Source: Okeania sp. KiyG1
GTDB taxonomy: Bacteria > Cyanobacteriota > Cyanobacteriia > Cyanobacteriales > Microcoleaceae
DNA: 42,687 bases
NCBI RefSeq assembly: GCF_014132355.1
Contig: NZ_BLZO01000104.1
Coordinates: 1-42,687 of the forward strand
Direction: 5' to 3'
Numbering within the stretch: position 1 is the first letter of the stretch; each line of letters opens with the position of its first letter. This document shows positions 13,026 to 16,756 of the stretch, one piece after another. The notes beneath the pieces were generated by a model, which saw only the letters and a list, made by a program, of their open reading frames with translations, did no database searches and was not told where the DNA came from. The position numbers were made by a program, and so were the translations under genes.

Positions 13026-14376
13026 TTGGAGACCAAATGAAGGGTCAGACCCTAAACTGCAACGTTGTAGTTATTATCAGGGGTCAGACCCTGAACTGCA
13101 ACGTTATAGTTCTGGAAATTTTTGGATGATATAGAATCTGGCGATCGGGACTAAATGAGGGGTCAGACCCTGAACTGCAACGTTGTAGTTATTATCAGGG
13201 GTCAGACCCTGAACTGCAACGTTATAGTTCTGGAAATTTTTGGATGATATAGAATCTGGTGATAGAGACTAAATGAGGGGTCAGACCCTAAACTGCAACG
13301 TTGTAGTTATTATCAGGGGTCAGACCCTGAACTGCAACGTTATAGTTCTGGAAATTTTTGGATGATATAGAATCTGGCGATCGGGACTAAATGAGGGGTC
13401 AGACCCTGAACTGCAACGTTGTAGTTATTATCAGGGGTCAGACCCTGAACTGCAACGTTATAGTTCTGGAAATTTTTGGATGATATAGAATCTGGTGATA
13501 GAGACTAAATGAGGGGTCAGACCCTAAACTGCAACGTTGTAGTTATTATCAGGGGTCAGACCCTGAACTGCAACGTTATAGTTCTGGAAATTTTTGGATG
13601 ATATAGAATCTGGTGATAGAGACCAAATGAGGGGTCAGACCCTGAACTGCAACGTTGTAGTTATTATCAGGGTCAGACCCTGAACTGCAACGTTATAGTT
13701 CTGGAAATTTTTGGATGATATAGAATCTGGCGATCGGGACTAAATGAGGGGTCAGACCCTAAACTGCAACGTTGTAGTTATTATCAGGGGTCAGACCCTG
13801 AACTGCAACGTTATAGTTATGGAAATTTTTGGATGATATAGAATCTGGTGATAGAGACCAAATGAGGGGTCAGACCCTGAACTGCAACGTTGTAGTTATT
13901 ATCAGGGGTCAGACCCTGAACTGCAACGTTATAGTTCTGGAAATTTTTGGATGATATAGAATCTGGCGATCGGGACTAAATGAGGGGTCAGACCCTGAAC
14001 TGCAACGTTGTAGTTATTATCAGGGGTCAGACCCTGAACTGCAACGTTATAGTTCTGGAAATTTTTGGATGATATAGAATCTGGCGATCGGGACTAAATG
14101 AGGGGTCAGACCCTAAACTGCAACGTTGTAGTTATTATCAGGGGTCAGACCCTGAACTGCAACGTTATAGTTATGGAAATTTTTGGATGATATAGAATCT
14201 GGTGATAGAGACCAAATGAGGGGTCAGACCCTAAACTGCAACGTTGTAGTTATTATCAGGGGTTAGACCTTGAACTGCAACGTTATAGTTATGGAAATTT
14301 TTGGATGATATAGAATCTGGTGATCGGGACTAAATGAGGGGTCAGACCCTAAACTGCAACGTTGTAGTTATTATCA
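13026..14376 (+). repeat. 118-bp tandem array, about 11.4 units
   Basis: GGTCAGACCC of successive units starts at 13043, 13161, 13279, 13397, 13515, 13633, 13750, 13868, 13986, 14104, 14222 and 14340, a 118-bp period with one 117-bp unit. Each unit holds the palindrome GGGTCAGACCC twice and a near-palindrome AACTGCAACGTTRTAGTT twice, then CTGGAAATTTTTGGATGATATAG. Units differ at only a few positions (GATCGGGAC / GATAGAGAC, TGAACTG / TAAACTG). No ORF runs through it. The array stops at TTATCA (14376) and resumes at 16571. Confidence 0.95.
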
Positions 14377-14438
14377 TATCAAATCCGGTGGGGTTGCACA
14401 TAGAATCCGGTTATATAATATCTATTTATAATTTCTTA

Positions 14439-15542
14439 CAGCAGTTTTCATATGAATAAACCAGAATGTTCAAACCAACCCATGGCATCATCTTCAGTAA
14501 TTTGAGCGATACGGCTGACGCCACGCTCCGCGAACGCGCTTACTAATAACTCGATCCAATTGTTCTGAAGTTCGAGGCTGATAAGAACGGAGGAAATTTT
14601 TAAATTTTGACTCTTCAAATTCGGGCTTGTGACAAATCTGGAGAGTAGGCTGGTAAGAATATTAATTCGGCTCCTGCCCTTGTTAATTAATTCTTCAATT
14701 ATTAGCCCTCCCGTGAATACTTAAATTATCCATCAATACAATTGCTTAAGCGCCATAATTGAGGTACTAAAATTTGCTCTACATATGTTTCAAATACATT
14801 TTTATTTGTACTACCAATTACCGTCATTGATGCTATTAAACCATCCAAGCTTAAGGCTCCTAAGACACTTGTGTTTCTACCTTTATTTCTAGGAGCATTG
14901 CTGACTACTCTCTCTCCTACTTTTCAAAAGGCCATAAAGACGAGTCATTCCTAAATTTACTCCTGATTCATCCACAAAAACCAAATTATTTATGTCTACG
15001 CGCATCCAGCCATTTTCGATACTCATAACGTTTTTGCTTAATATCTTCTCTCTCTTGTTCGGAAGCGCAAATACTTTTTTTTCTACTTATATTGATTTTT
15101 TTAAAATTCTATACATTGTTGATAGACTGACTTTGACTCCTGTTCTAATTTCGCTCATATTCCCATAGCTCACAAAGCATGCATATCTGGTTGTTGTTGA
15201 ATTTTCTGCGCTCATTAAAGAATCAAAATTAGCCTCACATTTAGGTAATGGTCCTCCTCCACGTTGCTTTGGATTCACAGTTCCTGTGGTTCGATAATGC
15301 CGCTCTGAAATTACGGACAAAAGTTAAACGTTCCTTGAAACCTTTGTGCTATTTGACGTTGAGAACCTTCTTGGTTTTGATAGGCCCTAAGCACAGGTCG
15401 GCCTAAATTTTGTGAATATGGTCTGGCCATTTTTGTGGTTTGGCGTTCGCGGAGCGTGGCGTCAGCCGTATCGCTCTAGATCACTATTTTGGTCTTTAGT
15501 CACATTTTACACTTTTGTGGTTCATTCATATGAAAAGCGCTG
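14439..15542 (-). mobile_element. IS630-family insertion sequence, decayed
   Basis: Terminal inverted repeats CAGCRSTTTTCATATGAATRAACCA (14439 onward and, inverted, ending at 15542) are flanked by TA on both sides, the target duplication typical of IS630/Tc1-type elements. The element is 1,104 bp. A 34-bp sequence (GCGTTCGCGGAGCGTGGCGT...) lies perfectly inverted at 14504-14537 and 15443-15476, about 65 bp in from each end; it is a dispersed mini-repeat rather than part of the transposon ends. Confidence 0.85.
14448..15430 (-). pseudogene. IS630-family transposase, multiple frameshifts
   Basis: Start MARPYSQNLGRPVLRAYQN at 15430, then RTTGTVNPKQRGGGPLP, TGVKVSLSTMYRILKK, NNLVFVDESGVNLG (first catalytic Asp of the DDE core) and LGALSLDGLIASMTVIG. 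It ends DDAMGWFEHSGLFI at 14448. These pieces lie in different frames with several indels, so no full protein is made. The C-terminal third carries a mini-repeat of about 31 bp at 14504-14537 between SK and AQITEDD. Length without indels would be about 325 aa, normal for the family. Confidence 0.8.
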
Positions 15543-15729
15543 TAAATTACTTCAATATTAGACATCTCCTTCATGCATAGTAGGGACGCCCTTATGCAAC
15601 GTCCCTACAGGGAAATAATTGATAATTTCTGTACGATAATACGATCATAGATTTTTTATTATTGAAGATGTCTATTTTATCTCCCCTACTCCCCCACTCC
15701 CCTGCTCTCAACTATATAATAAGTATTCA

Positions 15730-16559
15730 GTTACAGTCGATGGGGGTATCGCTACCCCTCACCTCTGTTTCAAAACCGTGCATGAGAGTTTCCAGCTCAC
15801 ACGGCTCCTAACATTGCAGGATTCTTCAAGGTTGGTTACACCTATTCTCGCACCTATATTTCAAGGTTTGTCAACCCTTGGAGCGCTTCGGTTTTCGCTA
15901 CTCTTCGGCTTGGATACCTGGAGATTTTTCACGGGCATGAGTCTCCTACTCTCGATTTGAGCCTACTTACCCCGGCAGCGTGCGTTTTGGCTTAATACAA
16001 TTTCGGTTTCACGCCTAAGAGCAATGCCTCCCCACGTCTGCTCATCCTAGAAATTACTCCAGGCTTGCTTCTTGGGGAATCCTTATCCCTAATAGCCATT
16101 GGTTAAGTTTTTCCTACTCTTTGAGAGAGGCTAAAAGGGGTTACTTCGTTTCCTAGTTACATTTGATGTTCCACAAAGAATTCCAGGTTTTAGTCCGACT
16201 CCTGTTAGGTTCAGCATTGAGAATCCGGTCATCTCAAGCAACATTGGAGTGTGCCTTTTGGCCAAGGTGTATCAGCCTAATTTCACCTTTCTATCATAAC
16301 GAACCGATAACCTGATTCACTGTAGGTTAATCATATGGAACTTCTCTAGCATGAGAACGGATTTTTGGCTATCTGTCCTCATTACATTAGACCCATGCAC
16401 CGGGAGACATATTTGTTAAATATGAAACCTGAGTCTTGAAGTCAGCCCGAACCCTGGACGAGAGGAATTTAACCTCTATGTTAACTAGAATTATCTCGAT
16501 CTGAGACTAACCTGCCTTAATAACCATTAAGATTATTTCAGAGGTTAAACGAATCGCAC
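15730..16559 (-). ncRNA. ORF-less group II intron
   Basis: Read on the minus strand: a 5' end GTGCG (from 16559) and 3' end AC (15730) fit group II consensus. Domain V is a 34-nt hairpin at 15774-15807 beginning GAGCCGTGTGAG with the AGC triad and closing GCACGGTT. Domain VI follows (GGGGTAGCGATACCCC). The 5' exon ends ATCCGGT (16560-16566), and a 7-nt perfect complement ACCGGAT sits in a GAGA...TCTC hairpin loop (16223-16229), the expected EBS1. At 830 nt there is no reverse transcriptase ORF, so mobility would need a maturase in trans. The empty target occurs at 16738/16739, where ATTCA is directly followed by ACCGGATTT. Confidence 0.85.
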
Positions 16560-16570
16560 ACCGGATTTGA

Positions 16571-16640
16571 TATCAGGGGTCAGACCCTGAACTGCAACGT
16601 TATAGTTATGGAAATTTTTGGATGATATAGAATCTGGTGA
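16571..16640 (+). repeat. Displaced last part of the 118-bp array
   Basis: Continues the unit cut at 14376: TATCAGGGGTCAGACCCTGAA, AACGTTATAGTTATGGAAATT and GGATGATATAGAATCTGG, then merges into a family F repeat. Confidence 0.85.
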
Positions 16641-16756
16641 TGTAATATCTGTTCATAATTCTATCTAGACTTCAAGCCTTCAATCTACCCTACTCTCCCA
16701 CTTCCCTACTGCCCAAACTATATAATAAGTAGTATTCAACCGGATTTAATATGATA
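16625..16756 (+). mobile_element. Family F repeat (CCGGTT ends), intact copy
   Basis: Runs from ATAGAATCTGGTGATGTAATA to TATTCAACCGGATTTAATATGATA, with TTCATAATTCTAT, AGACTTCAAGCC and pyrimidine-rich CTCCCACTTCCCTACT inside. Related starts lie at 12897, 14398 and 34671. The right end is the intron's target sequence without the intron. Confidence 0.55.

Follow-up and report, generated by a model that had tools for sequence, protein, structure and literature searches.

An Okeania ORF-less group II intron inserted in a MITE-like terminal inverted repeat, and its relatives, mostly at repeats

Introduction

The group II intron RmInt1 of Sinorhizobium meliloti encodes its own protein and has ISRm2011-2 as its main target. 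ORF-less introns that depend on others are described for TeI3 of Thermosynechococcus elongatus, where, according to the available part of the report, they form EBS-defined families served by driver IEPs in trans, one of which (F4) lies in an IS200-type element (PMC2882425). In T. erythraeum, 10 of the 17 introns with documented splicing have no ORF, and Tr.e.I7, the host intron of the Tery_4732 twintron, starts with GUGCGAUUC and is classed as IIB2; the available sections give this twintron as found only in Trichodesmium (PMC4649490). More generally, a 2015 review, in the portion available, describes ORF-less group II introns as uncommon among bacteria and as almost invariably found together with related introns, the proteins of which may act on them; it knew of a single intron in bacteria whose RT is degenerate (PMC4424553).

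The window analysed here is the whole 42,687-nt stretch of contig NZ_BLZO01000104.1 from Okeania sp. KiyG1 (genome G000), and it contains an 830-nt element of this general kind. The element is very probably a genuine ORF-less group II intron that arrived by EBS1-guided reverse splicing with the help of a protein acting in trans, and that belongs to a family persisting through repeats and domain exchange.

Results

The intron has ends reading GTGCGA...TGTAAC and the structural parts listed in Table 1. The covariance search that the first-pass annotation had named beforehand as a refuting test of the intron reading found domains V and VI (DV-DVI) at 15809-15730 with 46.4 bits against Rfam RF00029 (curated cut-off 40), and the reading stood. 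The consensus fold, computed with RNAalifold from 15 of the 19 family copies described below (all except C127, C58, L187 and L219), comprises 145 pairs picked by the program itself, 65 of which have changes on both sides; the whole-strand fold gave a z of -2.7 and is not counted as evidence. The domain VI-like hairpin seen earlier is recovered in this fold, with an unpaired A at the eighth base from the intron 3' end, the branch-point position. For domain V, the hairpin and its AGC triad, which we take to be the motif of this domain, are present as first described, whereas the length had been put at 34 nt and is 37 nt by the consensus fold. EBS1 sits in a 9-nt loop atop a 6-bp stem, and its proposed complementarity to the last 7 nt of the 5' exon is exact at 7/7 positions, or 8 bp counting the next base. 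In the sense orientation no frame stays open for more than 46 codons, leaving no intron-encoded protein, and no ORF of at least 80 aa was found between 12925 and 17015. Together with the ends, the EBS1 and the Rfam score, this bears out the initial description of a complete-looking ORF-less group II intron, and the GUGCGAUUC start suggests a IIB-like assignment.

Table 1 Features of the intron, its host element and related insertions. Positions refer to the window unless a contig is given.
Feature	Position	Strand	Basis
ORF-less group II intron, 830 nt	15730..16559	-	RF00029 match, empty-site boundaries, 15-sequence consensus fold
Domain I, intron nt 1-418	16142..16559	-	consensus fold
Domains II-III as one unit, nt 419-531	16029..16141	-	consensus fold
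Domain IV, nt 532-750, 219 nt	15810..16028	-	15-copy alignment; 205-219 nt across aligned copies
Domain V, nt 752-788, 37 nt	15772..15808	-	RF00029 and consensus fold
Domain VI, nt 792-827, unpaired A at 15737	15733..15768	-	consensus fold
EBS1 ACCGGAT, hairpin loop	16223..16229	-	EBS1/IBS1 pairing scan
IBS1 ATCCGGT, 5' exon end, within terminal inverted repeat	16560..16566	-	pairing with EBS1
Left terminal inverted repeat TATCAAATCCGGT of intron-bearing element, TGA (16575-16573) ahead	16560..16572	-	sequence
Right terminal inverted repeat ACCGGATTTGATA, then TGA (14376-14374)	14377..14389	-	sequence
Empty target AATCCGGTTGAATAC in neighbouring repeat copy	16732..16746	-	identical to intron-excised junction
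ORF-less introns in tnpB-like genes (G000)	C31:43333, C60:100421, C109:139580, C142:17302, C171:92924

The boundaries are fixed by an empty copy of the target. Specifically, excising the intron in silico yields AATCCGGT^TGAATAC, so that the matching empty site reported 180 bp away proves to be an exact 15-mer identity with a neighbouring repeat copy; beyond the junction, the two copies differ by three bases. The intron-bearing element is 2.2 kb long, ends in TATCAAATCCGGT...ACCGGATTTGATA and is flanked by TGA at either side, and its left inverted repeat is interrupted by the intron after base 13. A decayed, presumably IS630-like transposase gene lies inside this element (window 14436-15545, minus strand) with inverted repeats of its own at 15545-15525 and 14456-14436; as these lie within the element, a derivation of the MITE-like repeat from this remnant was considered and rejected. 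A tandem array of 11.4 units of 118 bp (13031-14376) stops where the intron-bearing element starts and sequence resembling one unit recurs at its left, so the element seems to have entered the array.

Across the 10.98-Mb genome, the empty-site 15-mer AATCCGGTTGAATAC reads through at 113 places with at most one mismatch (2 for the reversed control), which argues against the 830 bp being an ancestral part of the repeat; just two MITE places are occupied against these 113 empty ones. The exact 14-mer AATCCGGTTGAATA occurs 84 times in G000 and is present in 12 of 18 chosen genomes. Of 30 loci, 17 have the MITE ends AATCCGGTT/AACCGGATT at a spacing of 113-402 bp, marking a short element with terminal inverted repeats and many copies, and a TNA target-site duplication was recognised by eye in 12 of the 17 measured copies and was absent in five. 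The view that the target is a dispersed, non-coding repeat of MITE type therefore holds on the number of places, the inverted repeats and the TGA duplication. Occupied junctions, AATCCGGT followed by GTGCG, number seven in 4 of 13 genomes (control 0), and a complete intron follows in four of them: C104 (the 830-nt intron) and C172 in G000, one in G044 and one in G057. The suggested search for the intron beside other repeat copies thus turned up relatives of it. The other three junctions carry short 5' stubs identified by profile matches: 67 and 46 nt on two G058 contigs that share one flank, and 17 nt in G044 (E 0.31). The MITE copies concerned are G058:C1119, G058:C1397 and G044:C325. Since their 3' loss is unlike the product of incomplete reverse transcription, later deletion is the likely origin of these stubs.

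The 830-nt intron has 18 matches in its own genome. Within the GTDB family, 62 genomes were searched and at least 24 matched at E 1e-10, with up to eight candidates scored per genome. From the fetched stretches of matching genomes, 19 full-length relatives of 746-1053 nt, the 830-nt intron counted, were delimited in five genomes (G000 7, G044 7, G057 3, G040 1, G001 1). Their longest sense frames span 36-88 codons, and the most distant members, C58 and L219, are 54 and 56% identical to C104. The 3' end is AAC in four copies, including the 830-nt intron, ATC in 13 and ACC in two, so that most members depart from the AY expected at a group II 3' end, to which the 830-nt intron conforms, as it does to GUGYG at the 5' end; the ATC end is backed by empty repeat sites in C172, L191, C79, C127 and L189.

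Other repeat families besides the MITE also house these introns. Assigned by eye from the flanks and supported by site counts, 16 of the 19 copies sit in recognisable repeats: four in the MITE (C104, C172, L191, L199), five in GGAAGAA tandem repeats (C109, C127, C79, L189 and, on the 5' side only, L187), four in the GTAGGTTGGGTT repeat (L188, L192, L195, L197) and one each in an AATTAAC tandem repeat (L219) and two dispersed repeats (C121, C58), with L190, L204 and L205 in no repeat nameable by eye. GTAGGTTGGGTTGAGC-like sites number 177 in G000, 107 in G040, 197 in G044 and 259 in G057, and further joined sites in G000 amount to at least 11 for C121 and at least six for C58. Heptamer 16-mers, which overlap within arrays, number 1185 in G000, a count for which the reversed control is uninformative because the pattern reads the same backwards. 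Nearly identical copies occupy different places: C109 and C127 differ at one of 833 alignment columns, and C172 and L191 are 97% alike, yet their MITE flanks differ and they belong to two genomes.

Each intron carries an address that fits its site. When six EBS1 bases were compared with the six bases ahead of GTGCG, the copy's own EBS1 and IBS1 paired at 6/6 positions (G-U counted) in all 17 scored copies against 10 of 252 swapped pairings; the set holds 11 distinct EBS1 and 12 distinct EBS1/IBS1 combinations, and none of 20,000 permutations was equally good. The register for this scoring was set by hand after inspection of an unaided pairing scan, which in seven copies favoured a pairing 4 nt upstream, as a tie in C109, C127 and L187 and with 7 bp versus 6 in L188, L192, L195 and L197. 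Two copies were excluded from the scoring: L189, in which the unaided scan found no EBS1 loop and TTCTTC pairs with GAAGAA by eye, and L204, which by eye pairs CATAAG with CTTATG one loop base earlier. At the identical MITE position, EBS1 reads ACCGGAT in C104 and ACTGGA in C172, L191 and L199, and these sequences indicate that two intron lineages reached the same spot with different EBS1.

The domains of these introns tell conflicting histories. In 60-nt windows, C104 and C109 are 40-68% alike in domain I (DI) and 70-97% elsewhere; C172 and L199 reach 77-92% in DI and 30-56% in three windows inside domain IV (DIV), and L188 and L195 reach 70-98% in DI and 42-63% in DIV. The DI tree groups C172 and L191 with C121, L199, L204 and L205 (UFBoot 99) and L188 and L192 with L195 and L197 (UFBoot 100), whereas the DIV tree splits C121, L195, L197, L199, L204 and L205 off from the rest (100); support in the DII-III and DV-VI trees is mostly low. 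The AU test gives p 8e-33 for the DIV split when scored on DI and p 0.015 for the DI groups when scored on DIV, rejecting both. Given this conflict, the introns look mosaic, with DI and DIV parts apparently swapped between members. The pattern would be accounted for by two exchanges, or by three if the DI of C104 did not simply evolve fast, with homologous recombination and template switching as candidate mechanisms.

A related maturase-bearing intron, which the first-pass annotation had suggested looking for, did not emerge in close form among the loci searched: only DV-DVI, and once DI, resemble the 830-nt intron. Domain profiles were run on 67 loci, namely 40 G000 intron regions and 27 maturase loci mostly from other genomes, covering the RT places in part as whole fetched regions and including seven loci too short on the 5' side for DI; the comparison as displayed leaves out six family loci. 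Family-type DIV gave nothing above noise in these 67 loci, DV-DVI matched in many, and full-length DI matched, among the matches listed, only in C58, which is of the same kind, and C24. A maturase-bearing parent may have been lost or have diverged. Possible helpers include the R[YF][AGS]DD frames listed from G000, 11 of 16 of which exceed 450 aa from stop to stop. By DV-DVI, the nearest maturase introns in relatives encode proteins of the C93 type (C93 itself has 573 aa with RT, maturase and HNH domains). Such proteins occur at 74% aa identity or more in G000, G041 (for which a TAA is reported), G004, G057, G044 (broken by TAG) and G056, and the best matches reach only 57-60% in G040, G042, G059 and G060, which also carry intron relatives. 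With C93-type proteins at that level not found in four intron-carrying genomes, no single partner is indicated, and an obligatory role for this type is unsupported.

C24 (G000:C24:67937-70221(-), locus L117; relatives L254-L262) is the only maturase intron of G000 that matches DI end to end among the matches listed. Its 477-aa frame has RT and maturase domains, with YGSS where YADD is expected, and gave no hit for an HNH domain. The frame is kept with YGSS in all six genus genomes (dN/dS 0.18-0.49 over 15 pairs), and the 5' exon of a host gene lies upstream of it in five of them, G040 showing the 3' exon only. C24-like frames of 55-58% identity, likewise RT-degenerate, read YGGN in G058, YAGD in G057 and YAGN in both G060 and G059. 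Of these genomes, G057 and G058 also show that 5' exon, which is absent from the stretches fetched from the other two. The 3' exon, ILWQLERVD, matches the C terminus of the Tery_4732 product as given in the available part of the publication (PMC4649490). C24 thus appears orthologous to Tr.e.I7, the host intron of Tery_4732 in Trichodesmium, and on this sequence evidence an intron of that type is seen beyond Trichodesmium. An RT-dead maturase of this kind could provide splicing and not mobility; that the C24 protein serves the ORF-less family is a guess.

Other introns of the genome provide a background for the site counts. Thirteen RT-bearing sites were compared in G000; for 12 of them the scored places yielded halves and no additional joined copy (the 3' half of the C93 site recurs at least ten times, that of the C88 site at least once). 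For the RT-bearing C61, the site recurs joined at least once. C84, an intron of 2.2 kb that gave no RT match, has at least two full and one partial further copies. These joined-site counts are lower bounds, with 40 of 1151 and 40 of 164 first-look candidates scored; C152 was left out of both searches, C109, C127 and C79 were left out of the first for low complexity, and C61 and C84 were covered by the first only. The RT-bearing C152 has the heptamer repeat as its 3' flank, which indicates that RT-bearing introns too can lie at repeats. Five more introns lack an ORF; they are 878-879 nt long, share an identical DV-DVI and lie in genes that we take to be tnpB-like (Table 1); at least 14 other joined copies of their site were scored, and their 5' end resembles that of the C152 intron. 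At G000:C47:848-4137, introns lie end to end, with a GTGCG start one base past another intron's 3' end.

Discussion

The data favour a model in which EBS1 directed the intron, by reverse splicing, into a terminal inverted repeat belonging to a MITE copy and reverse transcription then completed the insertion, one of the maturases of the host providing the protein in trans. The family would persist by aiming at high-copy non-coding repeats, while DI, which sets the target, and DIV would be exchanged between introns of the same cells. The early suggestion that such an intron could spread without harm to genes, using a maturase in trans, is plausible.

Whether the intron is still active, or is the dead relic of a past insertion that lost splicing and mobility and was kept only through its non-coding location, bears on this model. 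No host gene selects for splicing at the site and the DI of C104 has diverged far from that of C109 (40-68% in 60-nt windows), yet the EBS1/IBS1 match is intact, as are the stem at the base of DI, DV, and DVI, which keeps its unpaired A, and a dead intron appears unlikely. Somewhat easier to entertain, though still doubtful, is a passive preference, in which introns land widely and those in genes are eliminated, leaving intergenic DNA of which repeats make up a large part. G000 is indeed repeat-rich, judging by the counts of GTAGGTTGGGTTGAGC-like sites (177) and of heptamer 16-mers (1185, with overlaps); however, the RT-bearing introns without a second joined copy at 12 of 13 sites in the places scored show that introns do persist at unique sites, and every repeat-borne copy has a matching EBS1.

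The mosaic could in turn be an artefact of aligning unlike DIV or of uneven rates, without any exchange. Cross-type homology in DIV is weak, the types being only 30-63% alike in windows, and the low support in the DII-III and DV-VI trees would fit such an artefact; but the two DIV types are discrete, close DI relatives carry different ones (C172 and L191 versus L199; L188 and L192 versus L195 and L197) and DI rejects the DIV grouping very strongly (p 8e-33), which leaves this explanation highly improbable. Exchange between targeted, trans-served introns thus stays the preferred reading. A bolder extension of it, which we hold to be unlikely, sees a protein-free retroelement lineage of exchangeable RNA cassettes, in which DI is an address tuned to any repeat that happens to be abundant and DIV a docking site for different host maturases, splicing being provided by a vertically kept, RT-dead MatK-like maturase and mobility by active ones.

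A diverse ORF-less family without evident parent, located in repeats and seemingly swapping address and DIV modules, presents a bacterial parallel to many introns relying on one machinery, a step proposed towards spliceosomal introns. The family furthermore offers natural EBS1/IBS1 sets for retargeting and for maturase-docking tests. In the open-access literature searched, no account of group II intron homing into MITEs was found, in part as judged by title, and the family's overall pattern was not met.

Like RmInt1, the 830-nt intron is a group II intron in a multicopy mobile element; unlike RmInt1, which targets an IS, it is ORF-less and interrupts an inverted repeat at the end of a short element. 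Like TeI3, as far as the available text describes it, the family consists of ORF-less group II introns of cyanobacteria that recur at sites matching their EBS; there, however, 17 introns have a common ORF deletion, ORF remnants and closely related maturase introns, whereas the Okeania family has a DIV found in no maturase locus searched, a DI/DIV conflict and MITE, tandem and dispersed-repeat targets (PMC2882425). The Trichodesmium introns belong to related hosts, and C24, the apparent Tr.e.I7 ortholog, resembles the family in DI; in the available sections those introns are described in protein genes, whereas the Okeania family lies mainly in non-coding repeats (PMC4649490). Insertion at recurring non-coding motifs is also known from group IIC introns, at terminators and attC sites, but these are described, in the portion of the review available, as inserting at such motifs in the DNA and not at a homing site of 20-35 bp, whereas here an EBS1/IBS1 match varies by copy (PMC4424553). 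Taken together, the family's pattern, with mainly non-coding repeats, matching addresses and apparently mosaic domains, is a variant of known ORF-less introns mobilised in trans and of introns in mobile elements.
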